Origin: Bradymonas sediminis
Lineage (GTDB): Bacteria; Myxococcota_A; Bradymonadia; Bradymonadales; Bradymonadaceae
NCBI RefSeq assembly: GCF_003258315.1
Contig: NZ_CP030032.1
Span: 1,154,001 to 1,218,000, forward strand
Length of the DNA stretch: 64,000 nucleotides
Direction of reading: 5' to 3'
The translations under genes and the position numbers were made by a program. The notes beneath the pieces were generated by a model. It did not search any database and was not told the DNA's origin. It was given only the letters and a program-made list of their open reading frames with translations. Shown piece by piece: positions 40,737 through 53,696 of the stretch (position 1 is the first letter of the stretch; every line of letters begins with the position of its first letter).

Positions 40737-42278
40737 ATGCGTCGTTCCGAATTTTATCGCGCTGGCTCTTTGGTGTTTTTAGGTGCTTGTCTTGCGGCGA
40801 GTGCTGCGCTGGTCGGGTGTGGTGAGGAGCGAAATCAAGAACCCACGGTCCGCATTTCGGCGAGCAGCCTTGCCACCGTGCAGGGCGAATCGGTCACGAT
40901 TGATGGGTCCGAGAGTTCGGACCCCGACGGGGACCCGCTGCGTTTTTATTGGGAGCTGAGCGCGCCGGAGGGGAGCGCGGTTCAATTCGACGACCTGCGC
41001 ACCGAGACCGTCACCTTTGTCGCCGACGTGGCCGGCTCTTATACCGTGAGCCTGAGCGTGAGCGATGGGGAGTTTCGCACCGACCCCGAGAGCGTCACGA
41101 TTGAGGCATCCTCGGGCGTCGTCGAAGAGGGCGCGCCGGTCGCAAAGACCGGCGCCGACCGCACCGTCGAGCTGGGCGCTGAGGTGCTGCTTGATGGCAG
41201 CGACTCGACCGACCCCGAGGGCGCAGCGCTGACCTACGCCTGGACGCTCAGCAGCTCGCCAAGCGGCAGCAGCGCGGCGCTCAGCGACGCGACGTCGGTG
41301 CAGGCGAGGTTCACGCCAGATAAGGTCGGCGACTATCATGTGTCACTGAAGGTCTCGAACGGGACCTATACCAGCGCGCCGGCGCAGGTCGTCATTAGCG
41401 CCGTCGAAGAGATCAACGAGTTCGCCCCCATCGCCGATGCGGGCGCTGACCAGCAGGGCGCGGTGGGCACGCCGGTGAACCTCGACGGCAGCGGCTCGAG
41501 CAACCCGAACGGGTCTGACGCAGACCTGCGTTATTTCTGGACCTTCCAGAGTCAGCCCGAGAATAGCGGGGTCATCGCGATCAACCGCCCCTCCAGCCCC
41601 GACGCCTGGTTTTTGCCCGACGCCGAGGGCACCTACGTGCTGCGCCTGGAGGTGCGCGACGCCGAGGAGAACCTGTCCACCGACACCGTTTCGATTGAGA
41701 TTGAGCGACTCCCGAGCGACGTGACGCTGATGATCTCGGGCTATCTGCAGGGCTCCAGCCAGAATAAGGCGGTCTCGCTGTATAACTTTGGCTCGGCCCC
41801 GGTCGACCTGACGCGGGTGCGCTTCTGCATCTTCGCCAACGATGAGGTGACAAGTTGCAGCTATGACGCGGCGATCACGCGCACCATCTCTACCCACCCC
41901 GACGGCACCGACATGCTCGGCGCGGGCGAGGTGCTCACGATCTGTGAGGGGCGCGTGAGCTTGCCCGGCTTTGTCGCCGACGATTGCGACCGCTCCCAGG
42001 GCACTTATCTGGCCAATCTAAACGGCGATGATCGTTTTCTCATCTACGAGAATACCGACGGAAACGAGGCATTTACCGGCGTCGACCTGGTCATCGACGC
42101 CTTCGGCCAGACCGCGATGCAGCCTGCCGATACCATCTGGAAGGACAAGACATTTTTGCGCTGCAACTTCGACCTCTATGACGGCGCCGCCCCCTTTGCG
42201 GCAGCCGACTATTTTAATGTCCGAAGCAAGGATTTCATCACCGGCTTTGCCGATGCGCCGAGCGAAGGCTGTGATTGA
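40737..42278 (+). CDS. PKD-domain lipoprotein with lamin-tail-like C-terminus
   Basis: The 513-residue predicted lipoprotein has lipobox ALVGC near residue 28. Three PKD-like domains follow, each with the GSxSSDPDG-type start ([60 protein letters not shown]) and the [10 protein letters not shown] strand. The last ~180 residues begin [20 protein letters not shown] and resemble lamin-tail-type domains of secreted proteins ([13 protein letters not shown]). The ATG at 40737 is preferred over 40719 because CAGG lies just upstream. Surface or periplasmic role is unknown. Confidence 0.82.
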
Positions 42279-42302
42279 TCCGTTGTGAGGGCTATGAATG
42301 CG

Positions 42303-42325
42303 ACGCGCGCCCCAGGGGCGCGCGT
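42303..42325 (+). terminator. GC-rich hairpin between PKD and amidase lipoprotein genes
   Basis: GCGCGCCCC pairs with GGGGCGCGC directly after the PKD gene stop, followed by a broken T tract (GTTGTTTCT). It is a moderate terminator or attenuator. Confidence 0.6.
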
Positions 42326-42349
42326 TGTTTCTCTGAAGGGTATATTTTG

Positions 42350-44599
42350 ATGATGGCGACGCGGTATTTATTGGGCAGAGCGTTCTTTGTGGTGGCGAGC
42401 TGCGCCTTGTTGGTGGTGGGCTGCTCGGACGCTCCCATCGACGAGCCGGTGAGCCCGAATCAGCAATGCGCTGGCTCGGCGGGGCCGGACGACCTTGATA
42501 CCGACGGCGATGGCGCGCCGGACGATTGCGATAATTGTCCCTATATTGCCAATACCGACCAGGCCGACGGTGATTTCGATGGGGTCGGTGACCGCTGCGA
42601 TGATGACCGCGACGGCGATGGGATTGATAACGAGATCGACAACTGCCCGGATATCTATAATCCGGACCAGAGAGATAGCGATCGTGATGGTGTGGGCGAT
42701 GTGTGCGAGCGCTGCCCGGACGGCGAAGACCTGCGCGATAGCGACGGCGACGGGATCGCGGATTGCTTTGATAATTGTCCGAGCGTCGCGAATCCCGACC
42801 AGATCGACACCGATGGCGACGGGGTGGGGGACGCCTGCGACAATTGCATCCCGGTGCCAAATGCTGGCCAGGCGGACCGCAGCGGGGATGGGATAGGCGA
42901 TGCCTGCATCCCAACCGCGCAGCGTGTTTTTGACCCCGAAGAGGCGAGCATCGCGGACATTCATCGCACGATTCTCGCCAAGAAGATGACCTGCGAAGCG
43001 ATCGTCGACGCGCATCTGCAACGGATCGCGCGGTATGACCTCGACGTCAGCGAGGGCGCGCCGATCAACGCCTTTGTGATGTTTAACGAGAGCGTGCGTG
43101 AGCAAGCGCGCGCGCTCGACGCCCAATTCGCCGAGACAAATTCGCTGGTGGGCCCGCTTCATTGCGTGCCGATTGGGGTGAAGACGAACTTTGACTCCAG
43201 CGACACCACCACCACGAACGGGTCGCTTGCGCTGGTCGGAACGCGCGCTCCAGACGACGGTTTTGCGCTGGCCCAGATGCGTGAGCGAGGCGCGTTGCTC
43301 GTCGGCACCACCGGAATGGACGAGTTCGCCGGCGGGGTCCACGGCATCGGTGGGCGCCACGGGAAGACGGGCAATGCCTACAACACCGCGACGAACTCGG
43401 GCGGCTCGAGCGCAGGCAGCGGGGCGGCGGTCGCGGCGGGTTTTTTGGTCGGGGCAACGGGCACCGATAATTGCGGCTCGCTGTCGATCCCGGCGGCCTA
43501 TCACGGCCTGGTGACGATGCGCTCCACCCACGAATTGGTGAGCGTTGACGGCATCTTCCCCAGCAACCCGCTGGACGTGGTCGCCGGGCCGCTCGCCCGA
43601 AGTGTGCGAGATATGGCGGTGTTGCTCGATGCGATGGCGGCCGCGAATCCTGGTGATGCTCGTCAGAATCATCCGCGCTGGGCGCGACCGGATTCCTATA
43701 CCGATCATCTCAACCCGAACGGGCTGCGCGGGCGTCGGATCGGCATCTTACGTCGACTCTCAGCCGAGACCGACGACTGGTACCGGGATCCGTTTGAGGG
43801 CGGCGACGCCGCGACCCACCGAACCTGGACCAGGGCAATTGAGGATATGCGCCGGCTCGGCGCGGAGGTTGTCGAAAATGTGCGGCTCCCGGAATTCTTG
43901 CCGTCTCGCTACGGCGCGGGGTTTGTCGTTCATGTCGACGCGTACCTAAAGGGCGTCGACTCTCCGGTGAAGAATTTCGCTCAAATCTGTGAGGAGGAGC
44001 GCTTCTCCAAATCGACCTATTCGAGCGTGGAGGCGTGTATGGAGCGCAATGAGTCTGGGTACGCCTATCCGAACGGGTCGCTCGATAAGGGGCGCAACGC
44101 CTACGCCTTCAACCGGGCGCATGTCACGCATGTGATGGACCTTTTGGACCTCGACGCGTTGGTCTACCCGGCCGACGCCACCGGCGCCGCGCATCGCTTT
44201 GCAGCGCAGCCAAATTGCCTGGCGACATCCGCCTCGGGACTGCCGGCGGTCGTGGTCCCCGTTGGGGAATCCACCGGCCGGGTGAAGCTGCCGATTGGGA
44301 TGATGATCATGGGGCGCGAGTTCGACGAGCCCAGCCTCATCGAGATGGTGTATGCCTTTGAGCAGGGAACGGGTTGGCGCCGCCCGCCGCAGCTGCACGC
44401 GGCGAGTGAACCGGAAGATGTCCCGCGGCTCGACCTGCAGGCGGCCAATGACCTGCGCCTCGCCCTGGCCGAAGCCGCATTTGAGCAGGTGCTCGCCGGG
44501 CAGAATAAATTCGACCTCTACCCGGAGCGCTTCCGCCAGATCGCTCGGGAAGTCTTGCAGGAGGCGGGCGCCGTTCATCTTCTTGGTCCCGCCGAATAG
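42350..44599 (+). CDS. Lipoprotein with thrombospondin type 3 repeats and amidase-signature domain
   Basis: About 749 residues. A lipoprotein signal (Cys near residue 25, LVVGC) is followed by four to five Asp-rich thrombospondin type 3 repeats at about residues 45-190 ([59 protein letters not shown]). The C-terminal ~550 residues are an amidase-signature domain. Its catalytic residues appear as Lys278 in PIGVKTNFD, Ser353 in [10 protein letters not shown] and Ser377 in [12 protein letters not shown]. The spacings of 75 and 24 equal those of FAAH. It should hydrolyse amides at the cell surface or in the periplasm. GAAGGG precedes the ATG at 42350. The substrate is unknown. Confidence 0.9.
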
Positions 44600-49036: not shown

Positions 49037-51673
49037 TTAGTCGAACTCGTAGACGCGCTCCGGGCCGTATTTTTCGACCAGGGCGTCGACGCGTTTGAGC
49101 ATGGCGTCGCGTTGGCGCCAGAATAGTTGCAGGCGCCGGCGGGCGTTAAGGTTCGCGTTGGGGAAGAGAACCTCGTTGACGACCGCTGGGTCCAGCGCGC
49201 GAATCGCCGTGACCATGCTGTGGCTAAAGCGCGACGTCAACTCAAAACGCGGGGTCACCGTGATGCTCATGTCTTCGTCGGTGAACGCGGCGCCGTTATC
49301 GATGGAGATAAAGATGCCACTGCCGAATTGGTTATTTACGCCGTAATATTTTTCGGTGCTGCTGAAGCGGTCCCAATTCTGGGTGAGGAAATCAAAGACA
49401 AGCAGCGATGAGATCTGGCGCGCGATATCGCGGGTGCTCGCCTCGCCTTGGTCGGCGAGCAAGGTCGCGTGGAAGCGGCCTTCACCCAGGGTTTCGAAGG
49501 GAGCGAGCAACTCGGCATAGGGGATTTTGAGGTCATCGGGGTGAAAGCGAATATCGAGCAGGTCTTCGTAGACCTCGGTATATTCGATGGGCCACTCGAC
49601 GAAATGCGGCACCCAATCCTCCAGGGTGCCGTACATATAATCGCGCACGACGCCGTCGGGGCCGGCCTCGCGGACCCAGTGAATCGCGTCGAATCGGTCG
49701 GTATAGCTCGCCCGCCAATCGCCCTTGCCGGCGGTATAATAGGCCTCGAAATGGGCGCGGCTGATGCGCGCGGCGCGGTTTCGGGGCGCTTCGAAATGAC
49801 AGGGGACGACTTCGCAAAAATGGTAGGCCGCGAGCTCCCCGCGCCATCCCTGGCCCCACTCATCCTGCGCGGGCTTAAAGGATGACTTTCGATTGCCGGG
49901 GTGGGTGACCTTAAAGGAGATCGATCGCCCGCCGCCGAGGGGCGAAATCTTTTGGACCGGCTCGTTGACCGCGAGGGTGAGGGGCGCGGCATGCAGCGCC
50001 GGGTCCGCGGCAATCGCCTGGTTGAACGCCTCTTTAAGCTCGGGGCGCACGCCGTTGGCGAGCATCGCCTTGAGCACGACCTCGCGGGCCATCTTCGGGC
50101 GCTCGGCGGCGATGAGACCTTGCGAAAACTGAATCGCGCCGTGTGCGCGCGAGACCTCGGCGCGGGCGCGCGCCATCGCGATCTCGGCGCTCATATCGTC
50201 GGACTCGGTGGGCGCTGGAGTCGCGAGGGTGGGGCGCGTCTCGGGCGCGGGCTTCGACGCCGGGGCCGGTGGGGTGTTGTTATTGGCGCGCAGCAGGCCC
50301 GGCTGGAAGATCGCCAGGGCGAGCAACCCGAAGGCGATGCCGGTGAGGATGGCGATGAAGAGCCAGATCGGGCTGGGCATCCATGCGCGGGCTTGTCGCG
50401 CGGTGGGCGCAACCTCCTGGGGCGCTGCGGCTTTGGGCGCGGGCTGCTCGGGTGTGCGCGGTGCTTCGACTGTGCGCGCTGCTTCCAGTGCTTCGCGGGG
50501 CGGCGTCTCGGGCTCGCGCGCCCATTCGCCTGTGATGACCTGGGCGACCACCTCCTGGGTTTGCTGCAAGAGGATTTGGCGCACCTCGGGGTAGATTGGG
50601 TGGCGGCTCAGAGGAATCCAATGCCCCGACGCGGTGAGTAATTCGAGGGCATCCGCCCAGACACCGCTCTTGAGCATCATCGCGAGGCCGGGCTTGTCGA
50701 CCGGGTCATAGCGCAGCGCTTCGACCCGCAGCTCCCATGGGCCTTCGTGGTCGCTCTCGGCGAACTCCTGTTGTGTTGCCGCTTTCAGTGGCGCAGGGGT
50801 CTCGGGCTTGGATTCCGATGCGGGTGCCGAGTTGGGTGCGGGAGCCGCGCTAGGTTCAACTTCGGTGTCCGCCCTTGGCGCAATGGTCGCGTCCGAGTGC
50901 GATTGCTCTTGCGCGTCCTGGGTAAGCGCGGCGGCCAAGTCTTCGGTGAGGATGGGGAGGTACTCATCCAGCGGGGCCGGCGCTTCCTCCTGCGTCTCGA
51001 TCGTAGTCTCGCTTTGCGAGCGCTCTTCGGCCAATTTATGGCGAAGGCGCGCGCGCAATGAGTCGGCGGAGGAATCGGGCGAGGACGCGGGCGCTTCGTC
51101 GCGGCCGCTGGACTGAGCGGTCGGTCCGGCGGGTGGTCCCGGAGGCAGCGGGCTATCGAAGAGCGAACTCTCGCCAACATCTGTGATGTTTTTGAAGACG
51201 CGCCTGGGGCGCTCGGCGCTCGGCGCAACGGCGACCGATGGGGTCGACAGCACCGGGGCCGAGAAGTCGGTCAGCAGGCTCGACGTGACGCTCTTGGTGC
51301 GACTCTCCAGGGAGCGCGCGACGCCCGCGCGGTGCGTGGGCGTCGGCAGCTCGAAGAGCGTCGAAATCTCGGTGCGTTGCCAGCCAAAGCCCCCGCCTTC
51401 GGGGGTGTATGCGGGCGGAAACGGCGAGGACTTTGGTTGCTCGGGTGGCGCGCTGGCCTCGCCGGCTTCGGGATGGGTGAGGGGGGTGAAGTTCGGTCGA
51501 ATCTCTGAGCGGGTTGGGGCGACGTCGTATGGGAGCGGGGCAGCCTGGCGTCGACCCGGTCGCACCACGATCCACGCGCGGCAATTGGGGCAGGGGAGCG
51601 AATCGGGCAGAGCGATGCCCTCAACCGGCCGAAGCCGAAAGCGCTGCCTACAAGTGGGACATGAAATTTCGAT
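49037..51673 (-). CDS. Membrane-anchored FAM20/Four-jointed-like kinase with N-terminal zinc ribbon
   Basis: About 878 residues if translation starts at the ATC at 51673 (see separate entry). An MJ0042-type zinc ribbon has CPTC (Cys5, Cys8) and CPNC (Cys28, Cys31). A long Pro/Ser/Glu-rich disordered region follows, then a membrane helix near residues 436-455 (PSPIWLFIAILTGIAFGLLA). The C-terminal ~300 residues resemble FAM20-type kinases: Lys600 in SSFKPAQ, Glu613 in RGELAAYH, DFLTQNWDRFSS (catalytic Asp768) and IFISIDNGAAF (metal Asp792). The kinase would then face the periplasm. Substrate unknown. The kinase call is by motif order and local similarity only. Confidence 0.75.
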   Translation of the reverse strand: MEISCPTCRQRFRLRPVEGIALPDSLPCPNCRAWIVVRPGRRQAAPLPYDVAPTRSEIRPNFTPLTHPEAGEASAPPEQPKSSPFPPAYTPEGGGFGWQRTEISTLFELPTPTHRAGVARSLESRTKSVTSSLLTDFSAPVLSTPSVAVAPSAERPRRVFKNITDVGESSLFDSPLPPGPPAGPTAQSSGRDEAPASSPDSSADSLRARLRHKLAEERSQSETTIETQEEAPAPLDEYLPILTEDLAAALTQDAQEQSHSDATIAPRADTEVEPSAAPAPNSAPASESKPETPAPLKAATQQEFAESDHEGPWELRVEALRYDPVDKPGLAMMLKSGVWADALELLTASGHWIPLSRHPIYPEVRQILLQQTQEVVAQVITGEWAREPETPPREALEAARTVEAPRTPEQPAPKAAAPQEVAPTARQARAWMPSPIWLFIAILTGIAFGLLALAIFQPGLLRANNNTPPAPASKPAPETRPTLATPAPTESDDMSAEIAMARARAEVSRAHGAIQFSQGLIAAERPKMAREVVLKAMLANGVRPELKEAFNQAIAADPALHAAPLTLAVNEPVQKISPLGGGRSISFKVTHPGNRKSSFKPAQDEWGQGWRGELAAYHFCEVVPCHFEAPRNRAARISRAHFEAYYTAGKGDWRASYTDRFDAIHWVREAGPDGVVRDYMYGTLEDWVPHFVEWPIEYTEVYEDLLDIRFHPDDLKIPYAELLAPFETLGEGRFHATLLADQGEASTRDIARQISSLLVFDFLTQNWDRFSSTEKYYGVNNQFGSGIFISIDNGAAFTDEDMSITVTPRFELTSRFSHSMVTAIRALDPAVVNEVLFPNANLNARRRLQLFWRQRDAMLKRVDALVEKYGPERVYEFD

Positions 51674-51687
51674 CGTTTGCTGCTCCT
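51671..51687 (-). promoter_or_regulatory. Ribosome binding site with probable non-ATG start (ATC) of the FAM20-like kinase gene
   Basis: On the minus strand AGGAG (51687-51683) lies 9 nt before ATC at 51673-51671. That ATC is in frame with the zinc-ribbon cysteines and the kinase. The frame is bounded by a TAG six codons before the first Cys, and no ATG, GTG or TTG occurs between that stop and the first Cys. The first standard start is a GTG at 51571 or 51568, after the ribbon. Confidence 0.5.
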
Positions 51688-51795
51688 AGAACCAGGTCCT
51701 GGCGCGCAGCGTATCCCCCAAAGGCTGTTTTGTGAATTAAATCTTGCGCTAAAACCCGGGCGGTCTCGGTCGAGCTCGCCCGGGTTTTGGGAGAA

Positions 51796-53610
51796 TCAGA
51801 GGCGGTCGTGGATATCGTCGTAGACCGAGCAGAAGGGCTCCCACAGGTGTTGGTTCTCGCGGTCTTCGAGCACGTCGGCCTGCGGGCAGGATTCACCGGC
51901 GCTCCACTCAACCCAGGCGTCGCCCTGGCCGACCGACTCGGCGTAGGCGCGGAATCGCTCGTAGCCGTCGCCGCCCTCATCGCGCGCCATAAAGACGGTC
52001 ACGTCCTGGCAGGTGCCGCTCTCGGGGTCTTCCATATGATTGAGGTTATACTCCATGATCAGGTCGTACATCGCCGCGGTCGACGCGTTCCAGCAACAGG
52101 TCTTGGAGGCCGAGTAGACGAGCTCTGCGAAGACATAGTCTTCCAGTCTTCGGTAGCGACGGTCGATCTCTTCGGGCGTGATATTCATCTCGGCGCCCAG
52201 GTCATAGAGATCGCGGAAGGCGTCCTCGCGCCCGGTGCGCGCCGCGCAGCTCGACGGGTAGCTCTGAAGGTGTGCGCGCTTGGAGTTGATGACCTCGAGG
52301 ACCACGTCCATCTTTGCTTCGGTGTCCAACTCGCTGAGGAGCTCCTCGAAGCGCGCGGGGCGCTCAGACAGCTCGCTATGGTTATTCGAGTTGATGAAGG
52401 ATGCGCGGTCATTTGGCGGGACTACGTTGGTCCAGCGACCGTCGATATTGGTCGCCTGGCGCCAGCGCTTCAGCCCGCCACCGAAGGTTTCGTAGCCCGG
52501 GCCGCCGGTCTCATCCATCGTGAAATAGCGTTTGCTCGCCGGGGCGTCGTCCCATTTGGGCTGACGGCGCGGCATCGAGCCGCTGGCGAGCTCCGCTTCC
52601 AATTGCTTCATCTCCTGGCCGGCGACCTCCTGGGTGCCCAGGTCGCGGGTGCGCATCACCGCCAGGGCATGGCCGATGCCCCTGCGCTGCCAGCGCTCAA
52701 GCAGCATATCGCCGGCCTGCACGGCCTCGGGCGCCAGGTTAAAGGTGTTGACGGAGTCGGCCAGGTTGATGGAGCCGAAATAGGTCAACTGAAGGCGCAT
52801 AAAATAGCCGACGCGCTTATTGAGATAGATCTCGTCGAAATAAGCGCCGGCGTGTTTGGTCTCGCCGTCGGCCGATTCGAGCATGGGCTGGGCGTCGTCG
52901 AAGGAGCCGGGGATGCTCAGGCCTGCGAGTTTGGGGTCGCTCGGCCATTCGATCTCACCGTCGCGATAGGCCTGCGCCTGGCTGCTATAGTCGGCGTAGC
53001 GGGTCTTGAATTTCGGCATGTTGCCCCAGCGTCCGTCCGCGGTGCGCAGGCCGAAGTGCCCGAAATAAAGGCGTTTTCCACCATCGGTGGCTTCCATAAA
53101 ATAGGGCAGGCCGTACCAACTGGCGAAGGTGACGCGCAAAAAGATAAGGACCTCTGCGCATTCGAGCGCGGGCGCCGGCAGCGTCTTTCCCCAGGGCGTC
53201 GTGAGGGTAAACGTTTCGCCGTAACCAATGCTGTCGATGCGCTCAAAAGAGCTGATCCACGCGCGGTATTTTTCTTCCCAATCCAGGCCGCTGTTTTCGG
53301 GCCAGGCGATGCCTGCCTTGCGCGCCGCGGGGGTGTCGGTGTCGGTCCAGGCGTTGGTGACCTCCCAGACCGCGGTCGATGATTCATCGACCGAGACCGG
53401 AAGTCCGCGGCGACCGCTGGTCGAATCCAACTTGCCGGCGGGTTCGACCCAACCGGTATTTCCAAGCGTGGGTTTGCCGTTCTCATCGACCTCGCCGCCC
53501 TGTTCGAGCAGGTTGGGCTCCGACTGCGTCGCCTCGCCGCAGGCGGAGATGAGCAGGATTAGAATACTTAGGATCGCCAAAAGCGGCAGATATTTGGTTC
53601 GGTTTTGCAT
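51796..53610 (-). CDS. Lipoprotein with C-GD-H papain-like peptidase pattern
   Basis: The 604-residue predicted lipoprotein has lipobox LLISAC near residue 24. Three features in order resemble papain-like/NlpC-type folds: a Cys in ALECAEVLIFLRVTFASWYG (about residue 150), a GD in QAGDMLLERWQ (about 300) and a His in GIGHALAVMRT (about 315). The C-terminal half is helical with several Cys (SKTCCWNAS). Peptidase activity is a hypothesis only; the rest matches no family I know. I use the ATG at 53610 because the likely promoter (53669-53696) leaves a normal leader; 53652 would leave about 10 nt. Confidence 0.68.
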   Translation of the reverse strand: MQNRTKYLPLLAILSILILLISACGEATQSEPNLLEQGGEVDENGKPTLGNTGWVEPAGKLDSTSGRRGLPVSVDESSTAVWEVTNAWTDTDTPAARKAGIAWPENSGLDWEEKYRAWISSFERIDSIGYGETFTLTTPWGKTLPAPALECAEVLIFLRVTFASWYGLPYFMEATDGGKRLYFGHFGLRTADGRWGNMPKFKTRYADYSSQAQAYRDGEIEWPSDPKLAGLSIPGSFDDAQPMLESADGETKHAGAYFDEIYLNKRVGYFMRLQLTYFGSINLADSVNTFNLAPEAVQAGDMLLERWQRRGIGHALAVMRTRDLGTQEVAGQEMKQLEAELASGSMPRRQPKWDDAPASKRYFTMDETGGPGYETFGGGLKRWRQATNIDGRWTNVVPPNDRASFINSNNHSELSERPARFEELLSELDTEAKMDVVLEVINSKRAHLQSYPSSCAARTGREDAFRDLYDLGAEMNITPEEIDRRYRRLEDYVFAELVYSASKTCCWNASTAAMYDLIMEYNLNHMEDPESGTCQDVTVFMARDEGGDGYERFRAYAESVGQGDAWVEWSAGESCPQADVLEDRENQHLWEPFCSVYDDIHDRL

Positions 53611-53668
53611 CGTCGAAGACGCCTTTTGAGAATCACTGGGATTAGGTTTCATGATATAATTTTCGCAC

Positions 53669-53696
53669 ACTATAGTATGAACGATCACAAATCCAA
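53669..53696 (-). promoter_or_regulatory. Sigma-70-type promoter for the 51796-53610 lipoprotein gene
   Basis: Minus-strand TTGGAT (53696-53691) and TATAGT (53674-53669) are 16 nt apart. Transcription would start near 53662. Confidence 0.45.

Follow-up and report, generated by a model that had tools for sequence, protein, structure and literature searches.

FAM20C is the casein kinase of the Golgi, and FAM20A, a pseudokinase, is its activator. FAM20 has been presented as an animal family of which FAM20A is restricted to vertebrates (PMC7948968, PMC5865150), and four disulfides are conserved in animal FAM20A, FAM20B and FAM20C (PMC5865150). A structural and evolutionary study of Fam20 makes no mention of bacteria (PMC5865150), and in a recent survey of bacterial pseudokinases FAM20 appears only among the references (PMC12599244). 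In bacteria, the Bacillus spore-coat kinase CotH has been reported to be related to Fam20C (PMC12189002) and some families of Legionella have been grouped near FAM20 and CotH (PMC9758233); apart from distant CotH and these Legionella families, no mention of a bacterial FAM20 was found in the open-access papers that were searched. Database entries for bacterial proteins of this kind do exist, because the Pfam Fam20C model recognises some relatives in Myxococcota, and we found no description of them. In this work we describe a FAM20-like protein of Bradymonas sediminis. What is new is a family widespread in Myxococcota which includes lipoproteins above the Pfam Fam20C cut-off, the presence in 21 out of 21 genomes of the Bradymonas family of a kinase and a degenerate paralogue derived from one old duplication, and a cytoplasmic ribbon and GYF-like domain which resemble those of GltJ/AgmX, with MglA/MglB encoded as well.

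The window analyzed, a stretch of 64,000 nucleotides from the closed 5.05-Mb genome of B. sediminis, carries the kinase gene on its minus strand at 49037..51673 (878 amino acids and a stop codon); the open frame given there by the first-pass annotation was confirmed, and the plus-strand reading is interrupted by seven stops. The window sequence contains no ATG, GTG or TTG in frame upstream of the zinc ribbon; a TAG stop lies five codons upstream of the ribbon, with AGGAG followed by ATC-GAA in between. Since there is no canonical codon ahead of the ribbon, and since the same AGGAGCA...ATC-GAA arrangement is present in the orthologue of genome G010, translation probably starts at the non-canonical ATC at 51673. 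This AGGAG followed by a probable ATC start is kept in two orthologues (window 51655-51692, minus strand, and L004 1366-1390). Automatic gene calling based on ATG, GTG and TTG would place the start at the GTG codon for residue 38, at the cost of the zinc ribbon.

From its N to its C terminus the protein, encoded throughout on the minus strand, is composed of an MJ0042-type zinc ribbon (51560..51673), a stretch rich in Pro, Ala and Ser (residues 46-305, 50759..51538) judged to be disordered from its composition (15% Pro, 14% Ala, 12% Ser), a weakly supported GYF-like domain (residues ~311-380, 50534..50743), a transmembrane helix (residues ~435-457, 50303..50371), four TPR-like helices of predicted periplasmic location (residues 490-556, 50006..50206), which are helices of the AlphaFold2 model and are matched by TPR models in some relatives, and a FAM20-like kinase domain (residues ~564-878, 49040..49984) identified by profile, AlphaFold2 model, Foldseek and VIA-align. 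Of the six cysteines in the whole protein, the ribbon holds four and the kinase domain the other two, Cys620 and Cys625.

All of the kinase motifs read in the first pass are present, namely SSFKPAQ with Lys600, RGELAAYH with Glu613, DFLTQNWDRF with Asp761, Asn766 and Asp768, and FISIDNGAAF with Asp792, which lies 24 residues past Asp768. The glycine-rich loop LGGGRS lies at 49922..49939 (minus strand, as are the following). The AlphaFold2 model and the homologues place Lys600 of SFKPAQ (49865..49882) in a strand corresponding to beta3 and Glu613 of RGELAAY (49823..49843) in a helix corresponding to alphaC, and invariance among homologues marks the catalytic loop DFLTQNWDRF (49364..49393, Asp768) and the metal-binding motif ISIDNGAAF (49283..49309, Asp792). 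No variation is seen among 65 homologues at Asp761, Leu763, Asn766, Asp768, Arg769 or Asp792; this, together with the presence of homologues in 20 out of 20 other genomes of the family, shows that the feature is more than chance. Modelling of residues 480-878 (pLDDT 93.2, pTM 0.91) predicts the Lys-Glu-Asp-Asp elements in kinase order: a strand carries Lys600 and the helix after it Glu613, Asp768 sits in a loop past a long helix, and Asp792 comes just past the following hairpin. In part of the Polyangia-type relatives (L083, L089, L074, L077 and others) the position of the catalytic Lys is an Arg (ALRVRS, AFRPRS) and the Asp motifs are kept.

The likeness to animal FAM20 kinases proposed in the first-pass annotation was borne out by profile search, Foldseek and VIA-align; no structure or profile of Four-jointed/FJX1 came up in the libraries searched. 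A profile of 65 sequences searched against the PDB returned six entries for FAM20, between 1.2e-14 and 1.2e-6, among them FAM20C (1.2e-14), zebrafish Fam20C (9.7e-13), FAM20A (3.7e-11), worm Fam20 (1.9e-10) and hydra Fam20 (1.2e-6); the next family was PI4KII-alpha at 0.2, with none else below. A profile of 30 rows also put FAM20 chains first (best 3.8e-5). A single-sequence search of the PDB with the kinase domain gave chance matches only (antibody chains), and a profile is thus required. By fold, the first 22 Foldseek matches of the modelled kinase domain were FAM20, as were the nine best entries in VIA-align (FAM20 Z 17.6-19.1; hydra Fam20 19.1, zebrafish Fam20C 18.3, FAM20A 18.3, worm 17.9). 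Type II PI4-kinases, CtkA and HipA share the atypical kinase fold (PI4KII-beta Z 16.2, CtkA 15.1, HipA 11.6) but score under FAM20 by both fold and sequence. CotH likewise remains apart, with Z 12.4 against 19.1 and no sequence match in the profile search; a DFG-like metal motif is reportedly missing from it, and it is not known to be membrane anchored.

A relation of the kinase domain to FAM20 is thus supported. The Bradymonas protein is like FAM20C and FAM20A in profile and in fold along the entire kinase domain, in the order of its Lys, Glu, Asp and Asp-Asn-Gly, in its extracytoplasmic placement (predicted here) and in the existence of an active-looking and a degenerate copy. It differs from these animal proteins in being bacterial, in being membrane anchored with a cytoplasmic half, and in lacking their four shared disulfides, Cys620 and Cys625 being the only cysteines of the kinase domain. 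Given the lack of these disulfides and a score for the window protein alone that stays under the cut-off of the Pfam Fam20C model (PF06702; 15.9 bits, cut-off 26.8), we use the term FAM20-like and do not assign it to FAM20A, FAM20B or FAM20C.

Fold scores were considered as a means of telling a protein from a glycan substrate, and they do not discriminate. A serious, if somewhat unlikely, alternative to a protein kinase is a FAM20B-like glycan or lipid kinase, which would phosphorylate an envelope sugar (capsule, LPS or peptidoglycan) and not a protein. FAM20B, a xylosylkinase, has the fold in common with the Bradymonas kinase and its activity has been proposed as the ancestral one in animals (PMC7948968, PMC5865150), and the next fold relatives after FAM20 are the PI4KII lipid kinases. 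Although the top single structural match is the sugar-bound hydra Fam20 (5xoo, Z 19.1), its lead over FAM20C is a Z gap of less than 1, which amounts to a tie, and by sequence FAM20C is ahead of it (1.2e-14 vs 1.2e-6). We know of no proteoglycan linker in these bacteria.

Homologues were found in all 21 of 21 genomes of the family to which B. sediminis belongs, as well as in several other families of the class, and with a wider profile 53 of 189 Myxococcota genomes were positive. A motif scan of one genome per species in 84,980 species, which used two motif patterns and is motif-dependent and non-exhaustive, gave 68 confirmed loci, all of them in records labelled Myxococcota, Deltaproteobacteria, unclassified Proteobacteria or unclassified bacteria; Lujinxingia vulgaris was among the relatives found in this way. 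A single-sequence scan of genome contigs did not find relatives. Myxococcota relatives above the Pfam Fam20C cut-off span 38-67 bits, with four lipoproteins (L145-L148) at 58-67 bits, and one of these four finds FAM20A, FAM20B and FAM20C at about 1e-15 by single-sequence search. Judged by sequence, members from other parts of the phylum approach animal FAM20 proteins even more closely than does the window kinase, and in Polyangia-type lipoproteins such as L147 one cysteine pair aligns with cysteines of FAM20A. Several of the Myxococcota proteins over the cut-off (L145-L148, L150-L152) have a lipobox. In two further loci (L056 6765-9005 and L055 7005-9089) a fusion joins the FAM20-like kinase domain with an FGE-sulfatase (formylglycine-generating enzyme-like) domain; in L056 a probable lipoprotein signal stands in front.

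Each of the 21 family genomes carries one canonical copy together with one or more degenerate copies; two of the canonical copies, located on short contigs, are visible only partially. The Lys, the Glu and both Asp are retained in the canonical copies, as is the glycine loop except in G019, whereas all 23 degenerate copies have lost the LGGG loop and show at least one change among the Lys, the Glu, the catalytic Asp and the metal Asp. The twin in the B. sediminis genome, which reads FEPAQ, RMAIA, NWDRF and TANMGAF, is encoded elsewhere in the genome (1866985-1870732) and does not adjoin the kinase gene. Degenerate copies form one clade in quick trees (97 in the full tree, 100 in a second tree which excluded long branches), and the subgroups of canonical and degenerate copies are largely mirrored, a pattern consistent with one old duplication inherited together. 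Most twins share the ribbon, the GYF-like domain and the helix. With its catalytic residues lost beside an active-looking kinase the paralogue has the character of a pseudokinase, and by analogy the pair recalls FAM20C with its activator FAM20A. The degenerate copies have lost various residues (glycine loop, Lys, Glu or Asp), in contrast to FAM20A, which is reported with a Gln in place of a Glu.

The same copies bear on a second alternative, that the kinase fold carries out another chemistry such as AMPylation or glutamylation, or has a purely structural or sensory role. Chemistry has changed in other kinase-fold families, which include a polyglutamylase and an AMPylase (PMC7948968), and the paralogues are evidence that a copy can persist once catalytic residues have been lost. 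However, the retention of Lys, Glu, Asp, Asp and the glycine loop in canonical copies (G019 excepted for the loop), when the paralogue has lost them, is what would be expected if phosphotransfer were selected in one copy only, and we hold this alternative to be improbable.

The first reading of the sequence had also proposed a type II membrane topology around a single helix at residues 436-455. The helix was found at residues ~435-457 with a hydropathy of 2.69, and its N side is the more positive family-wide, with 116 flanking Lys/Arg there, summed over 47 proteins, against 48 on the C side. Longer homologues have one hydrophobic helix ahead of the kinase region, many of the homologues read begin with a Sec signal or lipobox (e.g., LAGC, WGC, SAC) ahead of that region, and in some relatives such an export signal is the only membrane-directed segment. 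In the kinase domain Cys620 and Cys625 (49799..49816, minus strand) form a candidate disulfide: almost every copy in the class, whether canonical or degenerate, has both, and G014 (LSKLLPL) has lost the two together. The charge bias at the single helix, the exported relatives and this joint retention or loss of the cysteines make the predicted extracytoplasmic location of the kinase domain, which is also that of animal FAM20A, FAM20B and FAM20C, well supported. A cytoplasmic kinase, in which the hydrophobic segment would not be a type II anchor and the action would be HipA-like, inside the cell where ATP supply poses no problem, is very improbable: the location does rest on prediction, but relatives in which a lipobox or Sec signal is present and further transmembrane segments are absent, the cysteine pair and the VIA-align scores of HipA and CotH, well below FAM20, all argue against it.

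The N-terminal CxxC-CxxC ribbon recognised in the first pass (Cys5, Cys8, Cys28 and Cys31) scores above the TIGR02098 cut-off when taken in isolation, and with the ribbon profile TIGR02098 is matched in 23 of 25 members. Against the PDB, the ribbon of AgmX/GltJ, a protein of the Myxococcus xanthus motility complex, was among the two best matches and the better one over the full ribbon (7zok, E 0.0024). The 70-residue domain which follows the disordered stretch is conserved in 30 paralogues and orthologues and is modelled at moderate confidence (pLDDT 76.7) with the order strand-strand-helix-strand-strand-helix. The better matches of this model include GltJ 7z3c and other GYF domains, with weak scores (E 0.14, Z 4.2-4.6), Pfam GYF_2 gave weak matches in four of the 30 members, and the domain profile did not find a GYF chain among PDB sequences; we take a GYF-like nature as probable, not proven. 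GltJ has the same order as the Bradymonas kinase, in that a zinc ribbon at the N terminus is followed by a GYF-type domain and this by one helix, but the periplasmic part of the latter consists of TPR-like helices and the kinase. In Myxococcus the GltJ ribbon and GYF domain reportedly act with MglA. The B. sediminis genome encodes an MglA, which looked weak by the Arf profile alone but matches Myxococcus MglA at E 3.5e-80; MglA is present in 20 of the 21 family genomes, so that its co-occurrence is not discriminating. The B. sediminis mglA gene follows an MglB-like gene (L154 575-1881; G000:C1, around 521 kb). The first-pass suggestion of signalling from the cytoplasmic ribbon to phosphorylation in the envelope, which we infer only, is strengthened by how much the cytoplasmic half looks like that of GltJ/AgmX.

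The gene neighbourhood was examined for a conserved clue to the substrate and yielded none, since only G010 (L101) keeps the order lipoprotein, kinase, GBBH-like_N and the other orthologues share no neighbour. The putative lipoprotein upstream of the kinase in the window (51796-53688, minus strand; 630 amino acids) has no Pfam match. At 42275-44599 on the plus strand the window encodes a protein with a probable signal peptide, in which thrombospondin type 3 repeats precede an amidase domain. PADLOC gave no match to defence systems.

Taking together the relation to FAM20, the intact catalytic motifs, the predicted extracytoplasmic location, the universal pairing with one degenerate clade and the GltJ-like cytoplasmic half, we consider it probable that the protein is a type II inner-membrane, FAM20-like periplasmic kinase which has the degenerate paralogue as partner and is controlled from the cytoplasm through the ribbon and GYF-like domain. 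Its most likely activity would be the transfer, by Lys600, Glu613, Asp768 and Asp792 and with a divalent metal, of phosphate from ATP to hydroxyl groups on exported proteins (Ser/Thr) or on glycans of the envelope. The kinase would most likely work with the paralogue of the same plan as FAM20C does with FAM20A, and the cytoplasmic parts which the two share would probably act from the cytoplasmic side to position the pair or to switch it. The main difficulty for a periplasmic kinase is ATP, which is not known to be maintained in the Gram-negative periplasm. As the host bacteria prey on other bacteria (PMC7460792), ATP from lysed prey may be one source, a speculative one. A more far-reaching version of the reading appears unlikely as a whole: this would be a bacterial counterpart of FAM20C-FAM20A, in which an active kinase in the periplasm is joined by a pseudokinase subunit, the two being ribbon-GYF membrane proteins positioned by MglA at cell poles or prey contacts and phosphorylating envelope or secreted proteins, and with descent shared between animal FAM20 and the lipoprotein kinases of Myxococcota.

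If the probable reading of a periplasmic FAM20-like kinase with a degenerate partner is true, FAM20-type phosphorylation of secreted molecules occurs in bacteria too. A secreted or anchored bacterial FAM20-like family with an ancient pair of active-looking and degenerate copies would make extracytoplasmic phosphorylation in bacteria testable, both for its substrates and for its source of ATP, and such a bacterial pair would give simple systems for the study of pseudokinase activation. The existence of a bacterial FAM20-like family also bears on the origin of the animal secretory kinases.
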